Program-made: the position numbers and the translations under genes
In this document: one piece after another, positions 9,694 through 31,308 of the stretch
Layout: each line of letters begins with the position of its first letter
How positions within the stretch are numbered: the first letter of the stretch is position 1
From: Paramecium tetraurelia
Taxonomy: Eukaryota; Ciliophora; Oligohymenophorea; Peniculida; Parameciidae
Reading direction: 5' to 3'
Length of the DNA stretch: 64,000 bases
Assembly: GCF_000165425.1 (NCBI RefSeq)
Contig: NW_001799422.1
Span: 373,206 to 437,205, forward strand
Notes under the pieces: generated by a model
What the model saw: only the letters and a program-made list of their open reading frames with translations
Databases searched by the model: none
What the model was told of the DNA's origin: nothing

Positions 9694-10590
9694 TCAAGGT
9701 ACCATAATTATGTTTGCCTTTGCCTTTTTTAACAATTCATCAGCTGTTGAACCAAAAAATGTCTTGTTTTCTAATTGAGCTCTATACCCATTAGATCCAA
9801 ATACAACGAAGTCGAGATCATCGGAATTGTTTATCATATCAATCACATTCTCTATGGCTCTATAGGATGAATCCAATTATTTATATTCCCATTTTCTTTG
9901 AAATTTAGCCATAAACTCTTCCACCTTTGTTTTAATAGTTGTTCCAAATGCCTCTCTATCAGGAGTGGGAGCAAAACATATCAACAAACTATCACGCTCA
10001 TCGAAGGACAAGGCCACTGCACTTTCCAATGATTTATAAGATTTCTTTGATCCATCTATGCAAACTACGAATTTAAAGCCATTAGTTTCATCCCTTTTAT
10101 AGAGTTTCTTAACAGCAATCAAGGGCACTTTACTATTGTACACTGAATTTCTCACTGTCTATCCTAAAATTGTGACATCCTATTTGATTCCCTTTCTCCC
10201 ATTAAATCCGACTATCAGATAACCGACATTCAAATCTCCTGCTATTGTCAAGATTTAATTTCTAATGTTCTCCTGTCCTTATGCTTTCTCCTAAAACACT
10301 AATTAGTAGTTTGCTTCTGGATACTAATAAAGAAATAGGAGAATAAATTACCCTCGATAACAATTCAATTTTGTAATCTTCATAAATTGTTGTGCTTTAG
10401 AATTCAAATGGCAAGTATGATTTTTATTGATCTGAAACATGTGCTACAATGATTTGATTGAAAATGTTCTTATATTCAAAGAACTCCACAGCTTACTTAT
10501 GATTTTAATAAAATAATGTACAAAGAATGCTTATTTCGAGGCTTATGACCCATCGGTTGCAACCATTATATTTGACTTGTTTAATTCCAT
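9694..10590 (-). CDS. Tandem universal stress protein (two UspA domains)
   Basis: Two UspA domains in one polypeptide of about 289 residues. Domain 1 opens with NIMVATDGSQASKQA and has VGYLIVGFNGRKG; domain 2 opens with KFVVCIDGSKKSYKS and ends FGSNGYRAQLENKTFFGST followed by KANIIMVP. The G-x2-G...G-S/T pattern binds ATP in many family members. UspA proteins are small cytosolic stress-linked nucleotide-binding proteins; partners here are unknown. One 28-nt intron is at 10324-10351. Near 10510 an A-run is one base short of keeping the frame (conserved sequence resumes as HKQAVEFFEYKN), which is either a consensus error or a break. It lies between the ASH protein gene and the SPP-like gene on the same strand. 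Confidence 0.82.
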
Positions 10591-10642
10591 AAAATTAATT
10601 ACAATAAATATTATATATTAAACATTTAAATAATTCCAAATA

Positions 10643-12209
10643 TCATAGATCAGTTGGTTAAACTTTGCTATCAGGAATAATATCCACATTAAACAGTAGA
10701 TCGGGAGCTTTCGCATCTATTAGACTATCTCCTCTCAATCGTTAAAAGCTCTGATCTGTTAAATAGTCACCGAACCAAAATGAGTTGAATTCTGCTCTCC
10801 TAAGAGAATTTAGAGTTAAAGTTCCTAATAATATAGGATAAGTAAATATAGTTTCAGGTATCGAATGTTTCACAGACACTGTGGCCAATACCCAAAGCCC
10901 TTCTGCGATTATCAAAGACAAGAAGCCCTGCAGACCATAAGTGAAAGTCCTCTTAGTTTTATCTATCCTATAGGCTAAGCTCAAAAGGAGTCCTGGTACA
11001 GCTTGACTAAAGAGTGAGATCCAAGCACAATTTTTATTAAATTGCAAACTTATTAAGGGCAGTTGCAATTCTAAAGGGCAATTCAAAAATTGTAGTACAG
11101 TTGTGTTGTAAGACTCAACTTAAGTATAGTGGATGATTAAGGCGAGTGTTGAATCCAATAAAACATTGGATATCATTAAGAATGAGGCAAACTTGAAGTT
11201 CTTGAGTCTGAAGAACTTTACAATTAGTACTATAAAAGCTAGAGAAATTATATCACTCAAGTACCACGGCTTATAAAAGTAATAAGGAATACCAATTAAT
11301 AAAGAAATTATTGATGAAAACACAATGTAATATTTTCTTAAAAAGGAATTCGCTTTCATTAGACATGCAAGCTAGAGTTACATATTTTAATACCTCAGAA
11401 GACACAAAGAATATTGCAAGTGTGCCTATAGTGCAGGCTATTATAATGAATAAATATCTGATGAAATCTAAAAAGTCTGTTGCTAGGACGATCGTGGCTC
11501 CACCTGCATATAATAGTATGTAGATCAGAATGATCGTATTATTGATTTCGAATCCCTAAAAGTCTTTTCCATTTGTCTTCCAACTAAATGAAAGGATTCT
11601 AGTATATTTAGCCAAAAATGCAATCAAAATAGTTGATATAACGAGTAATATGGGGAGACTCCAATCGAATGTGATGTCTCTGTATGATTTGTCACATGAG
11701 AATATTATTGCAAACTCTATTAATTCATGAGTTTATTGGTTCACTTCATTCAAACTAACTTGAATATGTATTGGTGTCCAATAATTCTAAGATGTGAGAT
11801 GATCTCTTTGAGGGCATTGCTATGAGAGCCTAAAAAGGATTTCGCTTTTGGGTTTTAGCTTATCGTCATCTGAAATTACTTCAGTTTACAGGTTTCTCTT
11901 TATAATTATATAAAAATACATGTTCGTATTTTTTTCGTCCATTTGCAGAACAAAGACGTTGAATGATATTATATCGTCATTTTCTATTCTTAATGTTTAA
12001 TTTGAAATCCCAATTCCATTGTTAGTACTCAATATCCCAAAAGATCTTGGTGGCTTGCAAGTGACTCCTTGATTTAAATTCTCAGGGAGGAATTCAAATG
12101 AAATCTTGTTTTTATCATAAACTAAATATTCATCATTTGCATCTTTCATAAAAATCCGCACTTTTTATCCCAAAATTAATAGGGGTACAAAAAACAATAA
12201 AATATACAT
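10643..12209 (-). CDS. Signal-peptide-peptidase-like membrane protein without GxGD active site
   Basis: A 514-residue protein with an N-terminal hydrophobic signal (MYILLFFVPLLILG), a lumenal region of about 170 residues, and roughly nine membrane segments in SPPL order. The match is clearest in the last part: VPGLLLSLAYRIDKTK, then FWFG near the end, paralleling the PGLLVAYCHRFD and FWTG blocks of SPPL2. SPP/SPPL enzymes are intramembrane aspartyl proteases using a YD and a GxGD motif. Here the position of GFGD reads LFSQ, and the YD position reads LLD; the QPALLYLVP block is IPETIFTYP. So one catalytic Asp is absent. A 22-nt intron is at 11372-11393. The frame is otherwise intact over 1.5 kb, which argues for a maintained, non-proteolytic protein. 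Family assignment is by pattern and moderately sure. Confidence 0.65.
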
Positions 12210-12482
12210 TTATTAATATAATAATAAATTTTCTTGATTTTCTCCATACATAATTCCATATATCCAATTTTACATAAATTATTTTCATCGAACATTAATA
12301 AGTTAAATTTCTTAAACCTATTTCAAACAAACACAGCGTCTACATAAAATCCCTTCTTCTGATTTGCACATATAGAATTAATTAGGTTTAACAAGTCTAA
12401 CAATAATTACTTTAGTATGATTTATCAATAATTAAAATGACTAACGATCACTTTAAATTATTAAAATTTTTAACATTCAAAA

Positions 12483-13339
12483 ATGAGCAATCACCCTGCA
12501 TCAACAAAACCTCCCCAAAAAACAGCACCAGCACCATAACAACCTATTCCCTATTCTCCTCCAAGAACATATGCCCCACCAGTGGCATTTGCAAGTCCTT
12601 CATATCTACCAATCTAACAATCATTTGTAGGTGCCCCTGTTTAATATGTTCCTCAACCAGTTGCTGTTTAGCCAGTAGCTGTTCAACCAGTTGCTGTATA
12701 ACCAGCCCAATAGGTCATTAAGGGTGAAAGCAGAATTGAGTATCAATCTAAATTCAATAATTTTTAGGTATATTCCCTATGAGAAATCAGTTATTGAATA
12801 CGAAGAAGTCAGATAAAAAATCTAAGTCCCAAGAGAGAAGTATATAACAGAATACTAAGCTGTTGAATATTAGACTGACTACATCCCATAAGTATTCTAC
12901 GATAAAGTTACAGGTAATTAATTAATCACAATCGTTAGAGTACGTTCCTGTCGACAGATTTTAAGACAGAGTAGAATACTATCCTGTTGAAAGATAGGTT
13001 GTTCATCAACCAGTTCAATAAGTAGTAGCATAACCAGTTGTTTAATCTGTGGTTCAATAAGTTCCTCAATATGTTGCTCCAGTTTAGTCAGTTGTTTAAC
13101 CAGTTTATTAACAACCTTAAATTTCATATGCTCCTTACGTCTAACCTAATTTCGCCCCCTCAAGAATTGCTCCTGTGTCATATGCTCCTCCCTTGTCCTA
13201 CGGTGCTCCAGTGTCACATCCAAGAAGATATGTAAATCATATTGTAATCAATCAGTCCCCTCCAGCCAAACCATAGCCAGCCTAAAAGCCTTAGCCCCAA
13301 AAGGAAAAAAAAACATTTTTAGACAACATCTTTAGTTGA
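12483..13339 (+). CDS. Alveolin / inner membrane complex-type cortical protein
   Basis: A 267-residue low-complexity protein with a Pro/Ala/Gln-rich N-terminus, a central block of charged Val-Pro-Tyr repeats, and a Gln/Val/Pro-rich C-terminus. The core has YIPYEKSVIEYEEVRQ, then YVPVDRFQDRVEYYPVERQ; repeated VP, YxPV and E-R-x-V motifs are the signature of alveolins, which form the membrane skeleton under the alveolar sacs of ciliates and apicomplexans. Repeats of PVAVQ flank it on the N side. Introns are at 12740-12767 (28 nt) and 12914-12938 (25 nt), both needed to hold the alveolin frame. The upstream gene is divergent, with 273 bases between them. Confidence is high for the family. Confidence 0.85.
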
Positions 13340-13589
13340 TATTTAAATAATGTCCATAACATATTATACTAACCAAAACAAATTATTATTTCATTTTATC
13401 TATAGAATCCATTATTTAACATCAAGAATTCTAATTACGTTTTCGTTTAGATATGCCGTAAGGATCTTTGTTATTCTGATTTTCGCTACATTTGAGAGCG
13501 AGCTTAAAGATAAACTAAAACTTTAGTTGCTTTTACAAATGCTCAATTTTGCATTAATAAAAAATAAATAAATTAAATAGTTTTTAATA

Positions 13590-13965
13590 TGTGAGGTTTA
13601 TTAATCAACAACATTTATCATTGGTGTTTCTCGTCAAAATTCTTCATTTTATACAATCATATGATATGGATCTGGTAATTCACAAAATTTTATTTGCAAT
13701 GATCCTTAATTATTTCCAATTATCAAATACTAATAATATCAATTTACATGTAAATAATTATATAAATTCAATGTTTATATATTTATAATCGATATTTGCA
13801 TTAAAGAATTTTCATTCCGTCATATTCATAAGATCAAATAGATGATACTACTTATTGTCCCTAGTACTTCTAATTTCCAACTTCATTCTGTCAATAGTAG
13901 TCCTTTTATATGTTTTTAGAGAAAGCATCTTTATGCAACAGCGTATAGGTAAAGAGCCATTTAAG
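13590..13965 (-). pseudogene. Remnant related to the MGCLTS gene at 23.5-23.95 kb
   Basis: No intact frame. The plus-strand text near 13855-13910 (ccctagtactt, then a ttccaac block and a tgtcaat block) resembles 23639-23680, which lies around the second intron of the MGCLTS gene, in the same orientation. Translated, LEIRSTRDNK here parallels LEAQSTRDRN there. A weaker match follows near 13610-13660. This is read as a degraded paralogue of the 23.5 kb gene. The comparison was by eye; an alignment of 13550-14000 with 23480-23960 would settle it. Confidence 0.35.
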
Positions 13966-14042
13966 CTTAAAAAGACTCTTATCCGTATTGACTGGTTTTG
14001 TTTAATAATAAATAAATTATAGTTAAATATACTAAAAATAAT

Positions 14043-14387
14043 TCATAGTTTGAAATCCTCTAGGGAAGAAGGTAAATAGCTCGAGAATTCTTAAGAAAAA
14101 TTTGAATCTTAACTCAAATTTTCACATTCTTAAATGATAAACGAAGAGTCTTTATTAAGGTGTTTAAGCTCTTTTCTTAGGCTATCAAAATTTTCCCTTC
14201 TGGCCGGATAAATGATGATAAATCTTAAGGGTTAGTCATTTGTATAAGCACTAGAAGCCTTTTCTATTTATAAACAATTTTCTTGTGAAGTAACCTAGCT
14301 ATCATTTCGAGGTGATAACTCGTTCCTTCTAGTTATTTCTTAATTAGATATTGAGAGCATTGATTTGCAGGAACATGTCTAACCCAT
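14043..14387 (-). CDS. Small putative N-acylated protein, MGQTCSC start
   Basis: Unrecognised 114-residue protein. It begins MGQTCSCKS: Gly2 with Ser6 fits the N-myristoylation consensus, and Cys5 and Cys7 are candidate palmitoylation sites, so attachment to the cytosolic face of a membrane is likely. The rest is polar, Ser- and Glu-rich (ENFDSLRKELKHLNKDSSF), partly helical, without a known domain and without an intron. TGA at 14043-14045 closes it; nine in-frame TAA/TAG codons are Gln. It is the first of five small genes with this kind of N-terminus between 14 and 24 kb. Confidence 0.55.
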
Positions 14388-15615
14388 TAACAATTTTATT
14401 TATATTAATATTTCTTAATATTTTTCTTCTTAAAAGCCACAATAAATCCTTAATTTTATTTAATTCGTATTTACTACAATATTAAATTAACGCAACTATA
14501 TATTCTAAATATAGTTATCCTAGATTTTATGAATTCTGTGTATAAACTCACTCAGAATCTAAAATGATTAAATTAGTTGATAACGATACCCAAAATTGAA
14601 AATTCTTAAGTTAAAAATTCCGAATGCCAAAGATTTCCCAACACTAAATTTGAAATAAAATCCAAAAATTCTAATTAATATGAGTACGATATATAAGAAA
14701 GAATGAAAAAGTTATAATTGATTAAAACACTTTTATATTAGAATGAATATAATTAAATAAAATAATTATAAATAAATTTAGTCTAGAAAGTAAGATACTC
14801 ATAAACTATAATAAAATTTCAGATAAGATTAACTAAATTGCATATATTAAAGGGTTTTGCAGTTATAACTCTTGTTTAAATTTAATGGTTAATAATAATT
14901 GTAACGATTGAAATTGTGGTTAATTCAATATTTTTGCCAATAATATATATATAAAATAAATTGAATTTATGTATCACAAATAATAAAGAATGCTGAATAC
15001 TATTTGATGTATTTAAATCATTATTGAGCATTCATTTATATTAGATAAATGATTATATAACAGAAAAGTAATCATTAGGCACTTTTAATAAAAATAATTA
15101 GCAGAATAATCTCGTAATTAATTAATTCAACTGTCTGGGCGATTAAGATGAAAATGTGATTAGAAACTATATTTACTATCTTTTAACAATTATTATTATG
15201 ATTTCAAAATTTCAAAACAAATTCCACCTGCTCTCATTTGCATTAATTGCAATAGATAGATATCGGTTTTATCTAAATTTCATGAAGTTAAAATTTACAA
15301 TAATTATGAGTATGCTTTACTGTGTAAATTAAGTGAAAAAATGATGTGAAAAATATAAATTTTAACAGAGGATAATTCTGAAAGACAATTAAGAAAATTA
15401 ATTAAATAAATTCCAAATCCATACTTTGCTAATTAAAGGTAAATTGATCATCCTCTGATATAATAATTAGAGAATGACTCACTTAATTTATAAATTAGGA
15501 TTTGAGATCGTTAAAGATAGTAGCCTTGTTCAAAACCTCAGTCAGACAATGAACTTTCTTTTGATAAATAAAATAAATTATTATTATAGCTAATTATTTA
15601 CATACTATAAACTTA
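14388..15615. other. AT-rich stretch with no supported gene
   Basis: About 1.2 kb, very AT-rich, with many TAAT/ATTA runs and an (AT)n tract near 14945. Only short open frames occur on either strand; one of 48 codons starts near 15198 but has no coding look. Nothing here resembles a tRNA, transposon end or regulatory array. Its length is unusual for this compact genome, in which most intergenic gaps in the window are below 150 bases. Confidence 0.5.
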
Positions 15616-15927
15616 ATGGGCTGCAACGCATAAAAAATAAAGACTAAAACAAGGGACTAAGTGATAGAAACCAATCCAAATATTAAATGCTAGAATCAAT
15701 AAAGCAAAATATTAGAAACTGAGCAAAAGGTTGATAGACTTAATAGTGAAATGCAATGTCCCCACTCTCCTTAGATAGGAAGGAAGTTAAAACATATGGC
15801 AAGCAGTGATGAACTTCAAAAGTATCTTACTAAAAGGTAGAGCAATACTTAAAGTCCATTTAAGTATATTAAGAACTCTCCAGAATAAAGGAGAAAGCTA
15901 TCATTGATGAACAGCCCTAAATTGTGA
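15616..15927 (+). CDS. Small putative N-acylated protein, MGCNAQ start
   Basis: Unrecognised 103-residue intronless protein beginning MGCNAQKIK. Gly2 and Cys3 suit myristoylation followed by palmitoylation, although position 6 is Gln and not Ser/Thr. The body is basic and polar, with a short helix (ILETEQKVDRLNSE) and Ser-Pro sites typical of kinase targets (CPHSPQ, NTQSPFK, NSPEQRRKLS). No known domain. Placed between two minus-strand genes of similar type at 14.0-14.4 and 16.2-16.4 kb. Confidence 0.6.
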
Positions 15928-16157
15928 TTTAATGATTATTATTCTTTGTATTAGATCACATTTCAAATTTCTTATAAAATTAGAATGATATACTCAAATT
16001 TTATTGATCTTAATTAAAGTGACATAATATATATATATAATCATTACAAAGATCTTCTTTAGAGTGGTTAAGAAACCTAATCTATTTGAAAAAGAGTGGT
16101 AGACTTTGACAAATCAACTATTTGGTCTGCGATTCTTGAGCTTCCTAAATTCTAAGA

Positions 16158-16352
16158 TCAAAATATACGTGTAGATGTTATTATAGTATTAGGTGATGAT
16201 GCAGTCGTTCTTTTATGAAGTCCCAATTATTGTTTGAGATGTTTCTCTATATTTTACTAGATGTCTGTTAACTAGTGCTGATTCCTTGCAATTTTTCTTT
16301 GAGGTTTCAATTGAGGCTCATTGATAGAAAGATTTGAAGGAGCACAACCCAT
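16158..16352 (-). CDS. Small putative N-acylated protein, MGCAPSN start
   Basis: Unrecognised 64-residue intronless protein beginning MGCAPSNLS. Gly2, Cys3 and Ser6 give a good dual-acylation signal. The rest is basic and Gln-rich (KPQRKIARNQHQLTDIQQN), ending in a Ser/Thr-rich tail, TGA at 16158-16160. It is too short for a domain search to help. The shared N-terminus and place next to three similar genes support it as real. Confidence 0.5.
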
Positions 16353-16862
16353 AAAAGAAAATATTAAATCAAATAAATAATACTTCGTTTATACTCAATT
16401 AATCAAACATATGAATATATAATTATACTTATTTTCGACTTTTATGTCTTAATGCTTGGTTTTCTGAAATTTAATTTATTCAATGAGTATTTTACCATTT
16501 TCGAAATTTGACTAACTGTTATTTCAATATGGCCTGTTAATTATATTTATAATTATTAAATAAATAGCTTTAATAATGAGGGACATTTTTAATGATATTT
16601 TTTATTTGATTTTTGAGAAGAAATAGAAGGAGAGATATTAAAAATTATATAATTAGTAACATTTCAAACTGCTTCACTATAGTTTTGAACTCAATTAGTT
16701 ATTATTAATCTTCAATTCAATGAATAGTACGATGTTTAAATTAAAAGAGTAATATCATGATTTGTATTAATAATTTATGAGGTATTATAAAAATACTGAA
16801 GAATGCTGAAAATTTCATTCCTAAGCAGCATTATTAATATTATTTTATTTTCATATACAGGA
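16353..16862. other. AT-rich intergenic stretch between two divergent small genes
   Basis: 510 bases separating the MGCAPSN gene (minus) and the MGCVGQ gene (plus), which point away from each other. It must hold both promoters. No gene, repeat or recognisable motif is visible; composition is strongly AT. Confidence 0.45.
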
Positions 16863-17165
16863 ATGGGCTGTGTGGGTTAAAAATAGAATCGAAATCAATA
16901 ACATAATAAATTTCCATTACATCGGCAATCGATCTCAGTTTCACATTCAAATCGAAAATTATGTTTTGAGTCGCCATTTTCGACTGATCCTAAACAATAA
17001 ATTTAGCTTTATAGATCCATCGACATCACAAAAGATGAGGAATTTATTTTAAAGAGTGACAAGAAATTCATCTCTAAAAATCAAGACTCTCCAACCACTA
17101 CTCCGAAGTTTAATCAAAATCTTCAATTTGCGATGGGAAATCGTAAAAATAAAATTGTTATGTGA
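16863..17165 (+). CDS. Small putative N-acylated protein, MGCVGQ start
   Basis: Unrecognised 100-residue intronless protein beginning MGCVGQKQNR. Gly2 and Cys3 fit myristoylation plus palmitoylation; position 6 is Gln. The body is basic and Gln/Asn-rich, then Ser-rich (FESPFSTDPKQQ) with a charged stretch DITKDEEFILKSDKKF. No known domain. The gene ends 15 bases before the convergent minus-strand gene at 17181, a spacing normal for this genome. Confidence 0.55.
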
Positions 17166-17180
17166 AAAATTAGGAAATAC

Positions 17181-17955
17181 TCAGTAAAATTAATGATAAT
17201 TTATATTTTTATATGTTGTTTAATATATATTTTTACTAATAAACTAAATAGAATGCTCATATTACTAATTATTAAGAAAACCTAAAAAAGGATGGCACTT
17301 CTAATAAGAGTCAATATAATTACAAATATGTCTGATCTATTGAACCTAAGATCCGTATAAAATCAAAGTGCATTCACTTAATTCAAAGATTGACTCCAAA
17401 TACTCAAAGAAGTCTTAATTAAACGATTCAATTTTTATAAGTAAGATAGCCTGCTGTGATTATTATTTGAGCAATTCATTTTATAATTAACTCATTTTCT
17501 TATTTAAGTAAACCGAGTCAATGTTCAATGCTGAATAGTGATCAAAATTAATGTGCAAATAAGGTTTTTGATTATTCTCCAATTATTACTATAAACTCAA
17601 TGGCAAAGTATTATTTGTAAAATAAATTCCTTTGGTTTTATTGAATGGAACACTCAGCTCTTAAATATTGGTATTGGATGGTATTTCAATCAAATCTAAT
17701 TCACTAAAAATGTTGGCAAGTTTGTTGGTTTATTTGAATTGACTCATCAACTAAATTTAATTCATTAACACAACAAGGGCAAAAAGGCAAATGATAATGG
17801 TCTTGGAAGTTAATTTCTCTTCGAATTGTAATTGGGACTTGTTGAGAAGTATAAAGGTTATAAAGACAAGGGTTGTGAGAGCTATGAAAAATAAAACAGA
17901 ATAAAACATTTGTTAATTTAATTAAATTTATCGAACTTTGAATACATGAGAACAA
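17181..17955 (-). CDS. Unknown protein with CPCC motif
   Basis: Unrecognised protein of about 244 residues. The N-terminal part contains HYHLPFCPCCVNELNL, a possible single zinc knuckle; the rest is mixed helix/strand with ELSVPFNKTKGIYF and SQQAILLIKIESFNQDF. A 40-nt intron at 17704-17743 restores the frame across an internal TGA; this is longer than usual but has proper borders. The only in-frame ATG, at 17955, overlaps by ten bases the start of the divergent gene at 17946, so the true N-terminus of one of the two may differ. Confidence 0.55.
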
Positions 17956-19657
17956 CTCCTAATAGTGTCAAAGAAACTGCTTCAAAAACTTCAACTCAAG
18001 ATTATAAAAAATAATAATCATAGCCTGTATGAGATTTAAAATATTATAAAGACTGTTAGCATACCAGAATCTAGTTAATTATTTCACATTCCTTAAAAAT
18101 ACTGTCATCAACGCTTTAAACCACAACCAACTACATCTAAATCTATTGAGGAAAAGAGATGCAAAGTCAATAAAACCAATCTATCTGAATTAAATAATCG
18201 TACAAATAGCAGTTCGAAAAGTCGTATATCTGGTTTCACAAGCAATTAATTAGAAGATGATTCTTTGTATAATTCCTAGAATGCACTTAAATTAAAGAAA
18301 ATAATAGGGGACTCCTAGGTTTATAACACCAACCTATTTGTGTATTAATTTCATAATCATCCTTTTTAGTTCTAAATCCAACCTAACTTGTGATTCTTCC
18401 AGTCCAGGAGGTAGACAAAATAAATCAGCTTATAAAAAATCAGCAGACTTCGATATCACTCAATTGAACATGTTAAGAGAAAAGTCCTTGATGCAGAAAA
18501 AAGTCTAGTCATCATAAGCTGGCCAATAAAAAGAATTAATAGATTCATTTCTAAATCTAGATAAGCAAATTTAAGGGGCCACATTGGAATAACAGAAGAA
18601 ATAGCAATATTTAAAGCAAAGGGGATTGTGGGATCCATTTAAAGATCTGTTTATTAAGCAATTTGCCAGAACTCCAGTATAATTTAAGAGTGTGTTCAAT
18701 TAGTTGTAAGTATAAGTGAGGGAAATAGAATAGCAATGGTCAGATGTCATTATGTAAATTGCAAACAATTTATTTGAACTATTTTAAAATTCTGCCATTC
18801 TTATGGCTTATGAATAGGATTTGAAGTTGAATGAAATGATTGAATAAATGAGAAGGGAAAGAGATATCTGGCAGAATAACTTTAAGTCTCTTGAGTAAGA
18901 AAGAGATATTCTCTTAGAAACTGTTTCTCAATTAAAATAAACATTAGAAAAAGAGAGACCCTCTCCTTTCAAATAAGATAGCAAATAAAAGGATTTTGAT
19001 TCTGCAGATATTCCTTAGTTAAAAGAAATGATTAACCTAATGCAGTAAAAAATTTCAGAAATGTCTGAAAAAGAATCAAAATTAATTAAGTTAGTATTAG
19101 CCATTCGTAAGTCAGGAATAGATATAGAAAAGATATATAATGAGGAGGTTTTGAATGAAGACTCTTTATCAGAACAAAATAATCAATCAAATAGAGAAAG
19201 AAAGTAAATTTTTAATTTATTTATTAGATCGTTTATTACCAGAATTGAAAGAAGTTTCCATGATGCTGATAATTCAGTTGTTAATGATTCAGATGAATCT
19301 AGTTTTTAATATAATGGAAGACTGGATGATGAAAGCATTATTGAAAGTATTAGAAGGTTTGAAAACAGGAACTAAAACAGTGCTTATGCAACAGAAAGTA
19401 AGAGTTCGATAAAAATGAAGATAGATTTATCGAAATGCAGTTAATAATAGCAAAAATTGCAATAATTATAATAGTTATAATAGTAATAACAATAAAAAAA
19501 AATTTAACAGTAACTTTAATAATAAAATATGAATAAATTAAAAATTCCTGATCAGGAAGGGATAGGATTTCATTAAGAATTTATGTTGAAATTTAATGAG
19601 TTTTCTGAAAGCTGGAGAGTTTAGGTATTGAAGGATGAAAAGAGAACTAAATCTTGA
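17946..19657 (+). CDS. Unknown long coiled-coil protein
   Basis: A 552-residue protein with a Ser/Thr/Gln-rich N-terminal third and a long helical coiled coil in the middle (ELIDSFLNLDKQIQGATLEQ, later MIEQMRRERDIWQNNFKSLE), followed by an acidic stretch and a run of Gln/Asn coded by TAA and TAG near 19440-19530. No known domain; such proteins are common in the ciliate cortex and basal bodies, but that is inference. Two introns: 18342-18369 has normal borders; 18027-18051 ends in AAG, while the TAG nearby breaks the frame. The start lies inside the divergent neighbour's first codons. Confidence 0.65.
18027..18051 (+). other. Intron with AAG acceptor (25 nt)
   Basis: Starts gtatgag and ends ataaag. 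Splicing at AAG joins QSQP to TVSIPESSQ in frame. Using the later TAG (33-nt intron) shifts the frame into a stop. The size is typical of Paramecium introns. Confidence 0.5.
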
Positions 19658-19733
19658 TTTTTATATTATTTAACTAAATTTTGATATATTAACATATTTA
19701 AATTCAAAAATAAAGACAGAAAATTAGCTTTAT

Positions 19734-21653
19734 TCAGAGTGCTTCGTAAAAGATTATGTATGCTCCTTTATCAGTTAAATGCCTATTTTTTTTGTCGATG
19801 GTTACAACATCGTCATCAAATTCATACCAAACGTTTTATCTTCTAGTGTAGGCCTTATAATGACCACTATTTATTTATCCTTAATGTGAGATGAGACCCT
19901 TTAGTTTATATTCAGGGTTAACAACATTTTCAGTGCAATATCTAGAATTATAAAATAGAATTACTCCTTCATATTTAAGATTTCTGGATACGATATCTCA
20001 TTCTAAATCTTTTGATTTCTCGGAACTTAAGCAAACCTTTTCAGATGAATTATAAGAAACTAGGGTTTGTGTGTAATTTGAAGTTATCTTAAGAGAAATT
20101 TGTTTTTATATTGGCAAAGATTGCATTACCAATCATTAAATATTTATTCCTCTTTAAAATAATTCTTTAAGCAATCCATTAATTTGATTTCTTATAACCC
20201 AGGAGTATTTTAAATGGGTAAATTAAGATCCAGGATAGGGTCATAAACTTCACATGTTTTTTTACATTTGAGACAGTAATTTTTATTAGAAATTTGTCCT
20301 GTAAATAACTCAGTTATCAAATCTGGGTTTCTTCTAGTATAAGTTTCCCATGCTTCTGTTGCAGATAGAAATTCTTGTTTTTCAGAGTTTTTCTTTCCAA
20401 TTAGTTCCTCTTGAATTTGTGATAAAATAAATAATAGAAATTCATGTGAATCTTACTACTAAGTAGGTTTAAATTTCTATTAACAAATAAATGCCAATAG
20501 ATCCAAATTGATTGACTACCCAGGTATAGTTCCCTAAATTAGTCTAATAAGGTCTTGACAGGCTGTAGTAAATTGCCTATTCGATTATTTTTGAATTTTA
20601 AGAATTTTACGAATAAATTTGGGAATGCTTAACAAACACTGAAGAGCAGCATTCATGTAGCAATTATACTTTGGATTATGAAAACCTATAATCGGTAATT
20701 CCATTGGAACTTTTGAAAAAATTTTAACTTTGTTAGTTTATCCAGTTATGTTCCAGTCGAGAAGGTTACCTGAAGCACTTTTATCGATATCTTCAATGTT
20801 ATTGCATGAAAGCTTGAAATCAAGAAGAGGGTCTCTTGACTGCCTTATTGGTAGAATAGTTGTAGCGGTTACATGAGTAGCTCCATCATTGATAAGTTCC
20901 AGCTGGGTTCCGATTTGAAGGGGTAGCATTCCGTTAGGCTCATTGTTTATTTTATCGATTGGCTGGACTTCTAAGCATTCTTTATCATTAACTAAGCGTG
21001 AGTCTTGAATTTCGTTTTACGGAGACTCTAATTTTGCATTATCTAAATCAATAGTTACGGTGGGTCCACCCCCGTATAGCAAATGAACGAACTTCCAAGC
21101 TCTCTCATTTATAAGTGAATAATGCCTTTCTGGTTGAATTCCAGGAAGTAATTGTGGATCGTTGTCTATTGTAATATGTATCGTATCCTGTGTTCGGTGA
21201 TCATCTGTCAATATTTTGTTGTTGTTTATCTCCTTTGGCGGAGCTTTCTTCATTCCTCCCAGATATCCAGTGTACTGAATGGCCCAACGATATTCAATAA
21301 AATAAACAATAGGCAGATCTTCTGCGAGTAAACCATTCACAAACAATTTCTCCAAATCGACACTGCCTATATGTAAGAGAATACCTTTCTTTGACCTATC
21401 CTAAATCTCGATAGGCTTTAATTTGATTTACAACGTTTAAAATTTCTTTATGACTATCTTCAGTTTGGTTAGCTTCATTTGAGTTCTGCTTTGAATTTCG
21501 ATCCTGGTCTGGATTTTAAGCCTTTTCATCTTAATGGTTTTCTTTACTGAAAGATCTCACCTCTGAATCGTTATGGGTAGATTGTCTAAATAAAATAAAT
21601 AAATGGGTATTGTACTTGGCCCTTTTATTCTTCGTTTTACAACAAATAAACAT
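19734..21653 (-). CDS. Ubiquitin carboxyl-terminal hydrolase with DUSP domain (USP family)
   Basis: A 614-residue deubiquitinase of the USP4/USP15 layout: an N-terminal linker, a DUSP domain (VYFIEYRWAIQYTGYLGG, later RAWKFVHLLYGGGP), then the catalytic domain. The Cys box reads NPKYNCYMNAALQCL; Cys is present but the usual NxGNTC is altered before it. Zinc-finger cysteines are in CLKCKKTC and CNLC. The His box is SGHYKAYTR followed by WYEFDDDVV, so all catalytic residues are in place. It cleaves ubiquitin from substrates by family. Introns: 21586-21615 (30 nt), 21363-21384 (22 nt, CAG end) and 19942-19964 (23 nt). The frame is intact with these. Confidence 0.85.
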
Positions 21654-23482
21654 TAATTAATATTAATCAACTTATCTATAAATTTAAAGGTTTAAAAATT
21701 GAAGGTTCAATCAAATATGTGAATTTTTAGCTTTCCAAAAACATATTTTTATAAATTGTTAATTGCCAATTACTAAAAAATTTGAAATTAAATGCGCTTC
21801 ATCTTGCTTAAATTAATGAAGCTATAAATTATTTTAGTTAATATCAAATCTCTTTTCTATAAAGAAGGTGAAATAGGTTGGAAGAATTAAAAAGAAGCAA
21901 ACACTATAATATCGCTACCGATGTATCCTTAAACTAAAAGGATATATGCTGCTGCTTCTGTATTGCTAATTTTCCATTTGATAAAATCCTTTTTCTCAAG
22001 AAAATATCATTTAAAATGAAGATAAAGATGAAGACATTTATGTCATTGCAAATGGCTAGTAAATTATCCAATAAAAGGATACAAATCTGATGTATTTCTT
22101 TATGGGTTATCAATATCTGGATTTACATGGACTATAAAGGGGATATTAAATAAATCTTGGCTTATTACATTACATCTTACTAGATTTATTGAAGGCAATT
22201 AAATAATATCTGCTGAAAGACATAAAGCAATGATCTTTATCTGGAGATTTCTTAAGGATGGCAGGTTAAGAATTGGGTCATCAGCTAAGGAAATAATTTG
22301 TTATAAGTTTTAAATCTGTCATAAATTACAAGTGGATATTATGATTTTGCAGTAATTAATCAAGAAGAATTGTAATGCATTTGGAGTAAAATTATTATAA
22401 TATAACTTTAAACAACCATAGCTTAATCAATACATTAAAGTGGTTTTAGAATACTAGCATACGTTAATTTAAGATAAATTAGGATAAGTATTATGTTTGG
22501 TAGTGAGTTGAAGCACAATTAGGAAATAAATCATTCTTTAATTTTGATGAGCTCAAGAAATATTGGAAATACTTTATTTGTTGAGAAGCAGACTAATTTT
22601 GCAGTAATTAGAATTTATAATCTGTTTATAATTGAAGACGGAATGCAGAAAAATGGTATTAATATTGTTGGGTAATAAGATCAATTGTTATTGTTTATTG
22701 TAATTAGAAATTAAGACTATTAATGTGGTATGTGAATATCGCTATTTTTATGAATAATAATTTTGTGACAAGAAAATAATGGAAATTTAGGATTTTGATT
22801 TTTCACAATTCTGTATTTTTTAGAAACACTAAAATAAATAGAAGATCTTTCAAAAGTTAAATGGCTAAATCTAGTCAAAGGACATTGTTGAAGAATATAC
22901 TTCACTGAAATATGCTTGCAAATGAGGGTTTAAATTTATTTGATCAATCAGATATAAAATAGATTTGTTGAGGTGTAATTAATAATACTACTTATTTGGT
23001 TATAAAGCATGGTCTTAGAGATGTAATGTAAGTACCATCAGAAAAATTACAATCCTTTAGTATTGTGCTAAGTTTAACATTGATAGATTTAATATATAAA
23101 TCTTAGCATTGAGAATAAAATGATAATGACTTGAAAAATGAAATTAAACTAAATCTCAATACAATAGAATTCAATAGAGACTTCATTATCATGGGGAGTA
23201 GAATTGATTAATTTAATAATATTCAAATATCCTTTATGATTGTAATGGTAAAGGTAATTGTAAAAATGTTGAATCTCTTTTATATTTAGATGCTGTAAAT
23301 ATGATTAAAAATTAGTGAGTTCATTCATCCATTAATTTAGGCTTCATTTGTCCTTAAAAAAATAATGTTAAAAAAGTGAAAAATTGGAGGAAATAAATGA
23401 TACAATTTTAAAGACGTTTATTATTGTAGCAATGAATTTCAATGATTCTTTGATGTAAAGAATACAATTAATACAAATTTAT
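21654..23482 (+). pseudogene. Decayed coding region, plus strand, unidentified
   Basis: No single frame crosses this 1.8 kb, but protein-like stretches on the plus strand alternate among frames: near 22010-22230 (LMYFFMGYQYLDLHGLQRGY), near 22420-22510, near 22545-22735 (NIGNTLFVEKQTNFAVIRIY) and near 23240-23300 (LYDCNGKGNCKN, an EGF-like cysteine spacing). This looks like a broken gene for an extracellular or membrane protein; the family is not recognised. It may be several pieces. There is no sign of a transposable element. The evidence is by eye only. Confidence 0.35.
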
Positions 23483-23950
23483 TCATTTTTTAATATATTC
23501 TAATTTCCATAATAAATGGTCAGTTATTGATATTCTAGTATTGTTCTCAACAAGAGTGTCCCAATCATGTCGTTTTTCATTAATGTAAGGAACCCAAATT
23601 TTGCCCTTAAGAGGTTCATTTGGGTTGTCTATTTCTATCCCTAGTACTTTATGCTTCCAACATTATACCGTCTAATTTTTGGATGTAGTAATGAAATCGA
23701 TCGTCGGCTGGATCATAAAGAGAGATAAAATTTCCATCGCATTTATCAGAGACTTTTTCACTGAAACAAATTCCATTCATGACATTCATTATCAAATCGC
23801 TTTTCTATTTTTCATCAAAGTATTTAAATTGTTTTTCTGTCTTGTGGTCTGGATGCTGAATTCTAATCATGAACCCTTGTTTCATATCTTCTAACTGTGT
23901 ATAGTGGAATTATTTACTTTTTTATTTCCATTTGAAGTTAGGCATCCCAT
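23483..23950 (-). CDS. Putative N-acylated protein, MGCLTSN start
   Basis: Unrecognised protein of about 137 residues beginning MGCLTSNGNKK. Gly2, Cys3 and Ser6 form a strong myristoylation/palmitoylation signal. The body is a compact mixed domain (FMIRIQHPDHKTEKQFKYFD, ISLYDPADDRFHYYIQ, GKIWVPYINEKRHDWDTL) without known match. Two introns: 23891-23917 (27 nt) and 23641-23668 (28 nt). The first junction needs one more base in an A-run, probably a consensus error. A decayed relative seems to lie at 13.6-13.96 kb. Confidence 0.6.
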
Positions 23951-24673
23951 TTATTTTAATATTATAAATTGAAATTATTTGTTTTTAGATTGACTATTGA
24001 AGTAGAACGATTATCACTAAATTAATTAACCATCGACCAAATCTTTTAAATATGAACTTATATCAGTCAATGCTAATCATTTATAGAATCAAGTATCATT
24101 GAAAATTTAAATAAATAATCCCTCTTAGATGATAAGGTATATACATCTATAGGAAACGGGATAAGAAGTTAAATTTAAGAGGAAGAATTAGGTTCTAATA
24201 ATCAGTTCTGAATAATTACATAAACTAAATAAGAATTATAAATGAAATAATAAATTTGCGTACTTGTATGAATGGATTATCGAATAGATCTAAGTAGAAT
24301 CAATTAATTAGATAAGGAATTTGAAGTTGAATTCAACTATAAGATATATTGATAAACAAAGAAATGCAAACTCTACTTATAACTATCAAAATAGAGAAAT
24401 AAATATAAAAAAGCAATTGTAGGTTGATTAGGATAGTTCTATTAATAATAGCGCAGCAAACCCAACATGATAAGTACCAAGTCATTATCATGTGAATTCT
24501 ATTCTTGGATATCGATTAACAATCATTCTATAAATCCCATAGCTACTTCTAAGGAAATAGTAATGGAGATATCTTAGTATTGTATTAAAATGCAAGTGAG
24601 GTTATTTAGCGAATTAACAATTGGATATATCGAATTGATAATAACCATTATTATTTTTTATTTGATTAATAAA
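23951..24673 (+). other. Intergenic stretch with a degraded open frame (about 24100-24470)
   Basis: On the plus strand a frame reads QETGQEVKFKRKNQVLIISS, meets a TGA near 24240, and continues LYEWIIEQIQVESINQIRN to a stop near 24470. The two halves share one frame, interrupted once. No start codon, intron or known domain is evident. It may be a pseudogene or the end of an unseen gene. The remaining 200 bases before 24674 are AT-rich and would include the promoter of the reductase gene. Confidence 0.3.
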
Positions 24674-25392
24674 ATGAAAGCTTTAATCTTTGGTGGTTCA
24701 GGAGCATTAGGTCGATCAATGGTAAAGGTATTTAAAGGGTGGAAAGTGACAAGTGTTGATTTCAACAAGAATGAGGAATGTGACAATATTATTATTAAGA
24801 ATGCAAGTGATATCAATCTTCTGAAATCCGAATTAAATACCCTTGGTATCTATCCGTATATAGATTGTTAGAGAAATTTAATTGCATAGTTTGCGTGGCT
24901 GGTGGATGGACAGGAGGCTCAATAAAAGAAGAAAATGTTCTATAAGTTTATGAGGATATGAATCAGAAGAGTGTGGTACCAGCTCTAGTCTGCAGTCATT
25001 TAGCTACAACATAACTATCTAGATAGGGATTACTGATCTTTACAGGCGCTTATTCTGTATTCAATGCACCAACACCAAGCATGATAGGATATGCTTTGGC
25101 AAAGACAGCAGTTCATACTCTAGCAATCTAGACTGCTGTAAGCACTCATTTACCAGAAGATTCCGCTGTGATTACTCTATTGCCGTATCATTTTATCATA
25201 ATTATTAGAGAAACTATTGATACTCCTGCCAACAGATAAGCAATGCCAAAAGAAGATTTTACGAAATGGGCTAATCCTGATTAGGTTGCTGGATTAGTTA
25301 GATCATGGGCTGAAGGTCTAAATAGACCTAAGAATGGAGCATTCGTTCATTTAAGAGTAAAAAATGGTTCAATTGCACCTGATTTTCTTTGA
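24674..25392 (+). CDS. QDPR: Quinoid dihydropteridine reductase
   Basis: A 222-residue short-chain dehydrogenase. It starts MKALIFGGSGALGRSM, the NAD(P)H-binding glycine motif, continues with VCVAGGWTGGS and LIFTGAYSVF, and has the catalytic Y-x3-K in GYALAKTAVH. The order, size and AGGWTGG block are those of dihydropteridine reductase, which regenerates tetrahydrobiopterin from the quinonoid dihydro form. Two introns, 24846-24871 (26 nt) and 25185-25208 (24 nt), give one intact frame. The stop at 25392 directly abuts the stop of a convergent short frame. Confidence 0.88.
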
Positions 25393-25740
25393 TCATTTTA
25401 TAAATATAACATCAGAAAAAATCACTAATCTATAAATATATTCACTATAGTGTAGATCTATTGTAGTTCCCTTCTGAAATGTGTCTTCAACCATCAATAC
25501 ATTATTATCCAATTAAATATCATCTAATTATCAAGACTTTCGATTATGGATGATTTAAAATTTCATCCTTTTACAAATTTTAGAGTCCTTCACCATGATT
25601 ATATTAGTTCCCCACAAGAACAGAGACCAAATGTGATATGATAACAATTCATAAAGAAAAACTTAGGATTTTATTTCCTAAAGATTTATATCTAAATGGT
25701 TGATATTACTATTATTAAAATAATGATATAGATTAATATA
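25393..25740 (-). CDS. Short PRPP-motif protein or fragment, in-frame TGA
   Basis: A minus-strand frame ends at TGA 25393 and reads back through NNVLMVEDTFQKGTTIDLHY. The VLMVEDTFQKGTT segment resembles the PRPP-binding loop of phosphoribosyltransferases (hydrophobics, two acidic residues, then TG-rich loop). Upstream in the same frame is SYHIWSLFLWGTN and MVKDSKICKRMKFQIIHN, but a TGA near 25545 separates the halves. No convincing intron removes it. It is a damaged small transferase gene, a gene with a base error, or chance. Function is inferred only from the motif. Confidence 0.35.
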
Positions 25741-25756
25741 AAATTAATAATGACTT

Positions 25757-28700
25757 TCACCAAGGCAGTTTGGAGATCATGAATCTATCCATTACTCTCT
25801 TCTTTTATTCATCAATAGTTTATGTTGGGACCTTCTTTTCTTTTAATTGTTTTAATTTTTCTTCTCTTTCTGATCTTTTGCTCATAAATTACATAAACTT
25901 TTCTACTTTTACTTTATTTGATTCATGCTTTGGCTACACTTTCTTTACGTATTCTTATAATTCAGTGTAAGGCTACAACATAAACATTATATTTACATAT
26001 TCAACACCAAGTTCGATGGATTAGATTATCATGTCAAATAAGTTAGATAAAACGTTGCTCTGTTTTCTATTTTGGAATTCTTATTGAATAATCTTTAAAG
26101 CAATGTTTTCTAAGGAAATATCTGACAAAACCTATTTAATAATTTATTAATAGTTAGGTTAGAAGTATTCGACTGCTACTCCGATATGCAACTCAAGGTC
26201 TTATTATACAACAAGACTTCTGATCAGATACTTTAAGACTAGTTTTAGGAATTGCAATTGGTCTTAGTTTATAATCTTTATTATACTATGCATAGTCAAT
26301 AGTATAGCAATGAATTATTATTAACTAGCTTTTTCAATAGTTTCGAAGAATACTTGAAGGAGAAGGTAGAAGTTGGAGTTAATTAATTTGGCAGTTTCTG
26401 CTTCATTATCCTAACTTGTATAGATTTTGATTAAGGAGTTGGTGAGAATGGTGAATATATTTCCGATTTTATTTTCGTAATCATCAAACTATTTATAGGC
26501 TTCAGTTAGAATTGGTAAATTGGTCAGCATCTCTACTCCAGGCTACTGATCCTTCTAAAGCAAGGTTTCCAAGATTTTCATGCAACTCAATGTGATCTTA
26601 GCTGAGTGCTTGTCTCTCGATTCTTGGAAGAGATCCTCCTTTACTTTGTGGAAGTTGGCCTTGAGATATGCAAGCAATTCCCCTTCAGTCAATTCTAAAT
26701 TTTTAATAGTATTAACAGAAGTAGGCAGATACTCATCGTAGTATGGAACATTTATAAGCGGTTTAAAGGCTTTGTTCTTCGCAATAACGAGATCCTGTAG
26801 TTGCTGCAATAATAGCAAATGGCTGATTTGACCCATGAGTCGGTCACTATGAGACAAGTAGATGGTGGACATGCACTGAGTTGAATAACAAGACAACATA
26901 AGATTTTTATTATGGATGCAGAAAATGGCTTTGCAGACTTTAAATAGTTGGTCAGGTTCGTATTTGTTTGGTAGATTATACATAAGGAACTCAAATATTT
27001 CTTTGAGAATCTTATCAAATTTCCCTTAAAAGTTCAGCATTGTGATTACCATTTCTTCATAACTGGATTTCCTGAAGTCAAACTTGTATTCCTCAGGTGC
27101 TACTTTTTTTAAAGTATCACTCTTGAATTTTTGTGAAACTTCAATTGTAGTAGAAACCGATACTTTCTCATTTAGTTTAAATTCGAAAGGGAAATTAGAG
27201 ACATTCCTCACGATAAATGGTTTTAAGACTAGTAATTTCTCAGCAAGTATATCCCCATTCATTCTTACTTGCAATTTGAAGTAGGACTGATCCTCTTCTC
27301 CAGGCAAGATCACTTAATCAACAATTTCTTCATCATAAAATTCAATCTCTGTGCTGTTCCTTGACGTTGAGTATACCTTCGATATCCAATCTAATTGTTT
27401 ATTTGATACTTTTAAGGAATAACTCCTTAGTTGTTTCTCTTCATCATCATCCATTTTTATGATTAATTTTTGAAACTTCATGAACAACTTTACCCAATTC
27501 TACTTCTAGAATTTGCATCTACCCATGACCCAAATGTTCTTAAGCTTTAACTTTTGATGAAAATGATAGATCAAATCATTAGATTTATAAAGTATTCTCT
27601 ACAGTTCTTAAATGAATTGCTCCTTCAATAGAGGAACACAATACTCATTCTCAGCAACCAAATAGTCATGAATATATAATTAAATCTTTAAGAGATCTGT
27701 AACATTGGTAACATAAAATTCGCATTTCTAGAACTCTCCATCAGTCATGAGTCCTTAATCATTAATGCTTGTAATCCAGTACTTTTACTTATTGTATTTC
27801 AATCTCAATCTCAAATCAGGTCCAATGTATTTATTCTGATAGTCCTTCTCAATATCTTTCAATAATCTATAAATCATAATTTCGAATTTGCCAATAGTAA
27901 ACTAACTCTTTATCTACTTATACACTAAGTATTGTGTATCCAATTCGATAATCTTGCCTTCCTTAGTGAGACAAGTGAAACTTTGAGTTGGTTGAGTGCT
28001 CAGAACATGGATATTTCTAATCTTGATTTTTGTTTCCAGAATTGTCTCCATATCCTCTGCCCTTGTTTCTTGATGTCTAACTAGATACAATTCCTTAGAA
28101 CCTAAAAATATTTTAGCCACTGAGTGATTCCTTGGAAACTTCTTTCTTTCTGGGATGATAATTGTGTATTCGTATTCCCCATCAGTCTACCCTTCGCTCC
28201 TTTATATCATCTATGCTACGTAGGATGATATGGACGTAAAAAATGTGTATTTCAATTAACTAGAGAATTCTTTACATTCGAAATTATAATTAAATCTGTA
28301 TTTGATAAATTTCCCTGCCATATGTTTCAACTTAGTTAAGGTGTTAAATGACACATTGATTGAGTCTGCCTTGAATTGTTCACTAGACTCTTTGATAATA
28401 ATCTAACACTTAAATTCATCTAGATTCAAATCGAAGGTCCCTAATTGTTGTTCTTCATTATAAATGAATTGGATGGTGCTAATATTAATTACATGTCTTC
28501 TAAAAACCAATGCATCAGTGAACAGGACAAATTCTAAACAGGTATCAATTTCATCCAATTAAAATAAAATGGGTTGCACACTCTCCTTATAAGTTTGTTC
28601 AAGCACTCCATCCTTAATCCAAGGATAATTAATTAATGTCGTTGTGCCTACGTAAAACTTCAGATTAATCTTATTATCCTAATTTGTTATACCAATATTA

Positions 28701-31308
28701 GTGATTGAAACATCGTAAATCGATGTATGAGACAATCTCATATGCTGAATGATCTACCTTCGAAACTTTAATATCATCGGGACATCATTTCTAATTTCCA
28801 CATATTGAATTGCATCTAATTGTTTCAAATCTACTGGAACAACAAATTAATTTATTCTGAGCTCCTATTTAATTAACTTGATCACACTGATGTCCATTTA
28901 CAATTTCGTCAATTATGTGGAAGCTGGAAATTTCAACACACTATTCTCAGTCCTATCAAATTCCATAATATTCCCATTGTATTCAAAATTAAGATTGTCC
29001 TCCAATCGAGCTATGGTATCATTCTAAATGTGATGCAATTACAAAGCATACCCTTCCACCTACTCGTAGTCCTGAGAATTCTATTGAAATTAAATAGATA
29101 ATGGAGTAAACTTGACAAAGAGTTTCGGCTGATCTAATTCCTTGATCATTTTTTGAGGCGTGTCCACTCCGTATTTTTATTCTTTCTTAATCACGAATCT
29201 GCATTTCTCTCTTATCACGTATCCTAACGTCTTGTTTTTCCATAATAAATCGATAGCCTGTAGTTGATAGTCTGCCAACAGAGTGTGGTTCTCCTTTTTG
29301 TTGCCACTCTGATAAAATAATTGAAATCGAATGGATTTCCACAGATCTTCAGTTGTCCAATCAAATGTATCAAACACCAAGTAATCCTTCTCACTCTTAA
29401 CCTATTGGTAATCATAAAAGAATCTATAAGAAAATAACACTCTCATGTAATAGGCACCTTCAGTACTCACAGGATAGAGTGCTTAAGGAGTGATGGATAT
29501 GCGATTTGATTATGATATATGTCCACTCAATTCCAATCTAATCGTAAGCAGACATTGCTTTCCAATGGAATTCATCTACACATTAATAAACGACTCAGTT
29601 CCTAAGAAATCTAATTATTACAAATCAATGAATGAAGTATATGTATCTTAAATAATATCATTTTCTGTTCGATTGATCAATTGAAATGACAATTTATTTG
29701 GGAATTTGCAGATGAATGATTATCCAAAGTAGATTCCACAAATTTTCGATGTCTAAAAAGTCAATTCATCAGTTGTGATTGCCAACTATAGATTTTCATT
29801 CTTGGTAATTTTGACTGAATGGATTGTGATTTTCACAAAGTTACTTTTTTCCAATTTCTCCTCAACAACCTCCTCCTTTGATTGCGAATCACACTCATAC
29901 TTGATTGGTATTTATTGTCCGCCGAATAATATTTTATCCTCAATCTCATACAAGGGTATATCAAATGCAATTTCAGCCTTATTTGCCTTGTACTTTCGAA
30001 TCTAAACGTAATCATAAATCGATGAAGTTTGAAACATCATGTAATTCCCTTTATATTCATTGATACTGAACTCAGTAATAGGGAGATTGACTATGCCTCT
30101 CGGATTGTCAATCAAAAGAGAAGTATGATACTGAATATCGCTGTGCATTTATAGATTGAGAAACTAAGTCACTTTTTAGAACTGATTTGGATTTGAACCA
30201 TAAAAAGTCTTCAAGAATTATTAGAATGGCAAACTCAGTTCACCTTCGTTGCCATTCTCGAATTTGGCCAAAAAGGAAGTCTTCTTGTCTCCACAATAAT
30301 TGTAAAGAATGGCCGTATAATTCTACTCGTACAAGGCAATGTCACAATCCCATTATGGTATCACACTGATGTGAGTAAAATAAAAGTAATTGGGCGTACG
30401 GATTTGGAGATAATATTTGGCAGTACCTAACTCCTTGGTTGGAAATCCATCTATTTTAATAGATTTGATGGCCATGACTCTTTTCTGAGGCACCAATTAC
30501 TTTTCTTCAACGACCTTTAGAATTTCCTGTTTCCTTGACAATGTTAATCTCAGTCTCAGCATGCCTGTGTTCAATTGAACCTTGTCCAAGTACACTTCCA
30601 GTTCGTTGTTCTTCTGTTTCCAATTGAGATCGCACAGAAATATTTCTTTCTTCACAAAAGCCTGTTTCAATAACTTAATTTGATTGATACCAAAGTAATC
30701 CTTAGGAATTACATTGTAATAATAGATGAATGTCAATTTACAATAGGGCGAGTCGTTCATTATCCTCAATTCGGTACCTGCCTAGAAAGTGTAGGTTGTT
30801 TGACTTCCCCCCAAAGACATTGCCAATATTCCTTTGTTCTATGGAATCATGGATTACAAGTTGACAACGATCTCCCCAGTTACATTATCCACGAAGAGAT
30901 TATTGATGAATGATAACACGACTTGGATGGTGACTACCTTATCCTTGACTAAATTGGTATATTTGATGAGTTACTTCGATTTTGAATGGGTAAATCGAAA
31001 GGCTGATTGAGTTGAAACTTCAATTCTCGCAGATTGACCTTACCCAGAGTCTGCTTTGACATGTACCCACCCCTATTGATGTTGCATAATAGAATCTGTA
31101 ATTCTCGATTGGCATTCTTATTTTGATTCAGATGAAAGTGAAACACCTATTCAAAATAATCATCCGGCTTTGTCTTTTCAATGCTCTATTTGGCCTCTCC
31201 ATCCAACTTGAACTCTATGAAACACCTCTATTGATCTTTGTCTAACAACATCTGATGTCCTGCAATTAGTTCAATTCTCAGAATGCATTTCTATTCATCA
31301 ATGTTCAT
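25757..31308 (-). CDS. Giant C2-like beta-rich protein (1833 aa)
   Basis: One frame of 5.5 kb with two introns, 30949-30974 (26 nt) and 25973-25996 (24 nt). The start gives MNIDEQKCILRIELIAGHQM, a C2-like first domain (CFIEFKLDGEAK, later LQILLCNIN). About twelve further beta-sandwich-like segments follow through residue 1300, for example LRLRLTLSRKQEILKV and FVKITIHSVKITKNENLQLA. A helical C-terminal third (LLLLQQLQDLVIAKNKAF, then a lysine-rich tail) ends in SKLPW. No named family is recognised; C2CD3-type ciliary proteins and DOCK/ferlin-like membrane proteins share the arrangement of many C2-like units. Calcium-binding Asp clusters are not obvious, so protein or lipid binding is more likely than calcium sensing. 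The uninterrupted frame shows it is functional. Confidence 0.7.

Follow-up and report, generated by a model that had tools for sequence, protein, structure and literature searches.

Five small genes with conserved acylation-type N-termini in Paramecium tetraurelia, and a dispersed family of MGC peptides carrying KNPIxQRR

Five small genes, here named a to e, lie within 10 kb of a 64,000-nucleotide (nt) stretch of the Paramecium tetraurelia genome (contig NW_001799422.1, here C180, positions 373206-437205; hereafter the window), and each begins with Gly2 followed closely by a cysteine. Are such short frames genes at all, do they belong together, and what might they do? The original prediction, made from the sequence alone, took them for one locally expanded set of small, probably doubly acylated proteins, perhaps acting at the cortex or the ciliary membrane. 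All five frames were found in their predicted places when the window was read in genetic code 6, which has a single stop codon. The MGC starts of b to e and the packing of four genes into 3.1 kb also held, while gene e proved one residue longer than predicted: it is not one open frame (23483-23950, minus strand), and removal of two GT..AG introns (23 nt and 28 nt), whose splice sites were inferred from these dinucleotides and from the frame conserved in the copies, gives a product of 138 residues. Genes a to d span 3.12 kb, with e 6.3 kb away (Table 1). The need for code 6, the introns of 23-28 nt and a nearby epiplasmin gene are in keeping with Paramecium. Genome searches covered 69.07 Mb in 231 contigs and were made in six frames ignoring introns, so that the numbers of copies they found are lower bounds.

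Genes a to e are conserved, selected protein-coding genes. They recur in conserved order in three duplicated regions, on contigs C82 (inverted: e, d, b, a), C149 (b, d, e) and C190 (inverted: e, d), of which C190 is the nearest to the window, its DNA being 64-86% identical in stretches as long as 4.2 kb, and C82 and C149 are more distant. Gly2 together with a Cys by position 7 is kept in all 16 intact copies found in this genome (a 3/3, b 3/3, c 2/2, d 4/4, e 4/4). The copies of a on C82 (MGTSCSC) and C47 (MGSTCKC; a weak match, E 7.3e-4) retain Gly2, Cys5 and Cys7, those of b begin MGCRVQK (C82) and MGCNVQK (C149), and each of the four copies of d has 100 residues and starts MGCV. The spliced product of e in the window has 89% identity with its C149 counterpart and 88% with that from C82, and intron positions are consistent among the copies. 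In the C190 copy of e the second intron is 24 nt long and free of stops, and its retention would preserve the frame.

The ratio of nonsynonymous to synonymous divergence (dN/dS; Nei-Gojobori, own script) ranged from 0.16 to 0.45 wherever it could be computed for a to e. For d it was 0.19 and 0.16; b gave 0.45 (C82-C149), c 0.43 and a 0.40 (C82-C47), this last value being tied to a dS of 2.08 that is unreliable, and other pairs were saturated. Chance frames are rejected, because starts, ends and frames are conserved in the duplicates at dN/dS below 0.5. The observation of five Gly2/Cys genes is therefore confirmed, and strengthened by their duplicates, which support the view that the conserved N-terminus predates the duplications behind C190, C82 and C149. 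Paramecium has undergone successive whole-genome duplications; the pattern of regions, with the synonymous divergence of d (1.21 for C180-C190 and 0.94 for C82-C149, cross pairs saturated), fits two successive events of this kind. The weakest case is gene c, for which a genome search at E up to 10 returned zero relatives. Its copy on C82 (MGCNSTK), at 30% identity, was recognised by position and strand, and the remnant on C149, which scored 58 where the best of 30 shuffles reached 56 and has lost its start codon and an intact frame, is probably a decayed copy.

Two genes absent from the window support an ancestral array larger than the present one, with f inside it and g nearby. Gene f lies between c and d on C82 (MGCANIK) and between b and d on C149 (MGCCANK), and its two copies have 19 consecutive identical residues, INKNPILQRRASQKSPLTN, and a dN/dS of 0.28; it was undetectable in the window between c and d and in the 5 kb adjoining d on C190. 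Gene g is located between b and an epiplasmin gene on C82 (80920-81255, minus strand, MGLIIC, 113 residues) and C149 (396669-396998, plus strand, MGLILC, 112 residues), has a dN/dS of 0.27 and carries SSIMQRR near its end. It is absent from the window, and a genome search found only these two copies. Gly2 and an early Cys are again kept in both copies of each gene (f 2/2, g 2/2).

The unexpected gain of the analysis is a dispersed family of small MGC...KNPIxQRR genes, of which local members survive on C82 and C149 and not in the window. With f as query, relatives were found on C193 (MGCVNTK...KKNPIFQRRAS, E 0.03) and C76 (E 9e-4). The DNA pattern for KNPIxQRR matched 23 genome sites (14 + 9) in 69 Mb versus one in a backward control, and when all 23 were read, 19 lay in small frames starting with MGC. 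A looser motif, KN[PS]xxxQRR, was rejected as a family pattern, with 49 matches versus 61 in the backward control; its 24 matches other than KNPI and gene b served as a control set, in which none of the 13 sites read (hand-picked, not random) had an MGC start. A variant of the motif allowing other hydrophobic residues or Lys gave 25 matches versus two in the control, including new sites on C14, C44, C73, C178 and C229 that were counted by pattern only. The 22 aligned members (C76 was left out) are 53-84 residues long and have in common [YF]x[IVL]xKNPIxQRR and little else. Close tandem pairs occur on C42 and C165, and dN/dS was 0.11-0.42 across eight likely duplicate pairs.

Searches for known relatives of this family returned little. 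Comparison of the 22 members with PDB sequences at E up to 10 gave zero relatives, the f set had no convincing PDB match, and Pfam yielded six weak single-member matches (best E 0.0036). Among viral contigs, none of seven pattern matches was confirmed in a standard-code search, which misses Gln encoded by TAA or TAG. A search of open-licence full texts, by title and start of abstract, found no description of such a family or of KNPIVQRR, subscription papers and sequence databases lying outside its scope. The copies on C193 and C76 lie near frames that by eye resemble protein kinases (L040:2994-4499 and 7069-8159, plus strand; L041:3426-4710, minus strand); kinases are common in Paramecium, and these may be chance neighbours. 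A 91-codon MGCIQNK frame (L040:2460-2735, plus strand) 2.5 kb from the C193 motif gene overlaps other frames, and its body looks non-coding by eye.

How far do the window genes share in this family? The exact motif is present in f on C82 and C149 and in none of a to e (0/5). Gene b carries KNSPEQRR, and with a matrix of the motif only, applied to 11 proteins, it reached P 0.0004 in the window, 0.003 on C82 and 0.06 on C149. The two copies of g gave P 0.02 and 0.10 and d on C82 gave 0.08, while a, c, d and e of the window stayed at background. With the first nine residues removed, a hidden Markov model (HMM) of the family placed none of 12 cluster proteins above its own shuffles. On this comparison, b is possibly a divergent member, and for g there is a hint of membership; neither HMM nor matrix supports membership of c and d. 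Genome searches with a and e returned only their own copies. The prediction of dissimilar bodies was borne out for a, c, d and e, which have no relation to each other detectable by HMM or matrix, and that of one locally expanded set was not, since a and e match only themselves, c and d have no detectable relation, and b alone is possibly related, to f. Neither the unity of the five genes nor their predicted place in the cell follows from the confirmed observation.

Table 1. Features of the locus (window positions, except where a locus is named)
Feature	Position	Strand	Remarks
Gene a	14043..14387	-	114 aa, MGQTCSC; Gly2 + Cys5 + Cys7, hence not MGC
Gene b	15616..15927	+	103 aa, MGCNAQK
Gene b, C-terminal stretch FKYIKNSPEQRRKL	15859..15900	+	resembles [YF]x[IVL]xKNPIxQRR; motif matrix P 0.0004
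Gene c	16158..16352	-	64 aa, MGCAPSN
f-equivalent interval	16353..16862	.	f present here on C82 and C149
Gene d	16863..17165	+	100 aa, MGCVGQK
Gene e, exon 1	23918..23950	-	MGCLTSNGNKK, 33 nt
Gene e, exon 2	23666..23894	-	between the two inferred introns
Gene e, exon 3	23483..23637	-	ends at TGA
Probable decayed copy of c on C149	L021:4660-5219	-	score just above shuffles
Epiplasmin gene, neighbour of a (context only)	12483..13339	+	Pfam PF10992, E 5e-30; exons joined by hand

With moderate confidence, we read the window genes as the regional share of an old array that would encode doubly acylated, mostly unstructured peptides showing a short C-terminal motif at the membrane. After removal of Met1, an N-myristoyltransferase would acylate Gly2, and palmitoylation of the neighbouring Cys by a DHHC enzyme would hold the peptide at a membrane. 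Its linker probably lacks structure. The C-terminal block that is conserved, namely KNPIxQRR in the family and gene-specific in b and d, would act as a short linear motif shown at the membrane, where it may recruit, or compete for, a soluble partner. What suggests such a tethered motif is that the linker varies while the motif, followed by a tail that is mostly basic (net charge from -1 to +4), hardly does. As had been predicted, known domains are lacking, all of a to e remaining below the curated Pfam cut-offs (best sub-threshold match HR1_TOCA to c, E 0.002). The myristoylation consensus includes Ser/Thr at position 6 and Lys at position 7, which are present in 14/20 and 16/20 of the motif-family members starting with MG, respectively; among the window genes these two positions are Gln and Lys in b and d, Ser and Asn in c and e, and Ser and Cys in a.

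Several known systems resemble these peptides in part. The SH4-type N-termini of Src-family kinases and G-alpha-i, a signal for myristate and palmitate, likewise have Gly2, Cys3 and often Ser/Thr6 and Lys7; unlike in those proteins, no kinase or GTPase domain follows the start here, only about 50-140 residues, and homology is not claimed. The small flagellar and surface proteins HASPB and FCaBP of trypanosomatids, compared by description only, are, like the peptides proposed here, hydrophilic, dually acylated and encoded by several gene copies, but contain known repeats or EF-hands. MARCKS-type myristoyl-electrostatic switches similarly combine a lipid anchor with a basic stretch that may be phosphorylated, whereas the tail here is shorter and mildly basic. 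Tuning of this tail by phosphorylation, as a kinase switch, is speculation, because phosphosites behind the motif show no significant enrichment.

For the dispersed genes we make a more tentative proposal, plausible and still short of probable: a so far undescribed family of 19 or more MGC peptides in which KNPIxQRR would be the ligand of one conserved partner, anchor and linker picking the membrane and the motif bringing the same machine, with the window cluster as one site where such peptides arose and stayed. Seven fixed motif positions across 23 otherwise diverged small genes offer a clean handle on that partner and on the marked membranes.

A number of results weigh against the main reading of membrane-anchored motif peptides. 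The motif does not always come with the anchor, as 4/23 carriers lack MGC (MGN on C189, MQSN on C166 and C181, no MG on C76), and the Fisher test that favours a link between motif and MGC start, by contrast with the looser-motif sites (P 1e-6; 3e-6 when restricted to the 19 motif sites newly read), takes duplicates as independent. RRxS after the motif occurs in 10/22 members and is found in all members of only 4/11 groups (P 0.11). Further, the motif is missing from c and d, and b does not pass the whole-body HMM, so that the model applies to the window genes only in part, and a and e are separate families.

Among the alternatives, the five could be unrelated small genes, each with a myristoyl/palmitoyl start, that are neighbours by chance and form no array with a common function. 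Consistent with this, a, c, d and e have bodies without detectable relation to one another or to the motif family, and e is 6.3 kb distant. The pattern ATGGGNTGY has 2349 sites in the genome (1208 + 1141, including those within other genes) versus 782 in the backward control, and a Poisson model predicts three starts within 1.25 kb, as in the window, about 2.1 times genome-wide and the three of C149 3.3 times. MGC density by itself is thus weak evidence for the window cluster, since about two such triples are expected in the genome. Ten other 10-kb stretches gave two such sites, with frames of 14 and 7 codons. On C6, four ATGGGNTGY starts are crowded into 1.8 kb, with frames of 101, 24, 46 and 24 codons and the motif in 0/4. 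What makes mere coincidence unlikely is that the group of four MGC genes within 1.6 kb on C82 has a genome-wide expectation of 0.06, that b has part of the motif of f, and that the family forms tandem pairs elsewhere (C42, C165).

At the other extreme, b, c, d and f, perhaps together with g, might all descend from one MGC gene by tandem duplication and have become unrecognisable beyond the N-terminus. Their close spacing would be explained, as would the MGCxxxK start common to b, f, d and the C82 copy of c, the motif remnant in b, the hint in g (P 0.02 for one copy, 0.10 for the other) and the tandem pairs elsewhere in the motif family. However, the HMM without the first nine residues rates b, c, d and g no higher than many shuffles, c and d are not significant with the motif matrix, and c lies on the opposite strand; single descent of the set is in our view doubtful.

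Other alveolates use small acyl-anchored proteins to organise their membrane sub-compartments, and the set might similarly mark the cortical alveolar membrane or the epiplasm, its acyl anchors defining sub-compartments. The IMC sub-compartment proteins of Toxoplasma (ISP family) have a PH-like fold. ISP1-3 are small alveolate proteins with analogous N-termini (Gly2 and a Cys within ten residues), a divergent N-terminal and a conserved C-terminal part, and a change of Gly2 abolished membrane targeting (PMC2936552). ISPs have a common domain in their C-terminal two-thirds, whereas e, the sole structured-looking protein here, has no ISP match and matches no Pfam family (E up to 1) or solved structure (best E against PDB sequences 0.76 and 0.19, with unrelated names). 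An epiplasmin gene adjoins a and is present on the same side of the cluster in all four regions (window, C190, C82, C149); epiplasmins build the sub-membrane skeleton of Paramecium (PMC2709106). Gene neighbourhood alone proves no function, and this one is a lead and not evidence by itself. The predicted cortical or ciliary role is accordingly unsupported beyond that single hint, and an ISP-like role appears quite improbable.

That the frames are spurious products of AT-rich DNA read in the one-stop code 6 has next to no probability: 112 open reading frames of at least 50 residues overlap positions 10000-28000 and chance MGC starts do occur, for example a 53-codon MGCTLS frame (28569-28730, plus strand) antisense to a 1776-codon frame, but the starts, ends and frames kept in the duplicates at dN/dS below 0.5 and the consistent intron positions of e contradict this explanation for a, b, d and e, while c has in its favour a single intact copy, of 30% identity, and the decayed one.

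The other neighbours of the five genes carry, by Pfam, a universal stress protein domain (9694-10716, minus strand), a signal peptide peptidase (10643-11509, minus strand) and a DUSP/UCH ubiquitin hydrolase (19289-21529, minus strand).

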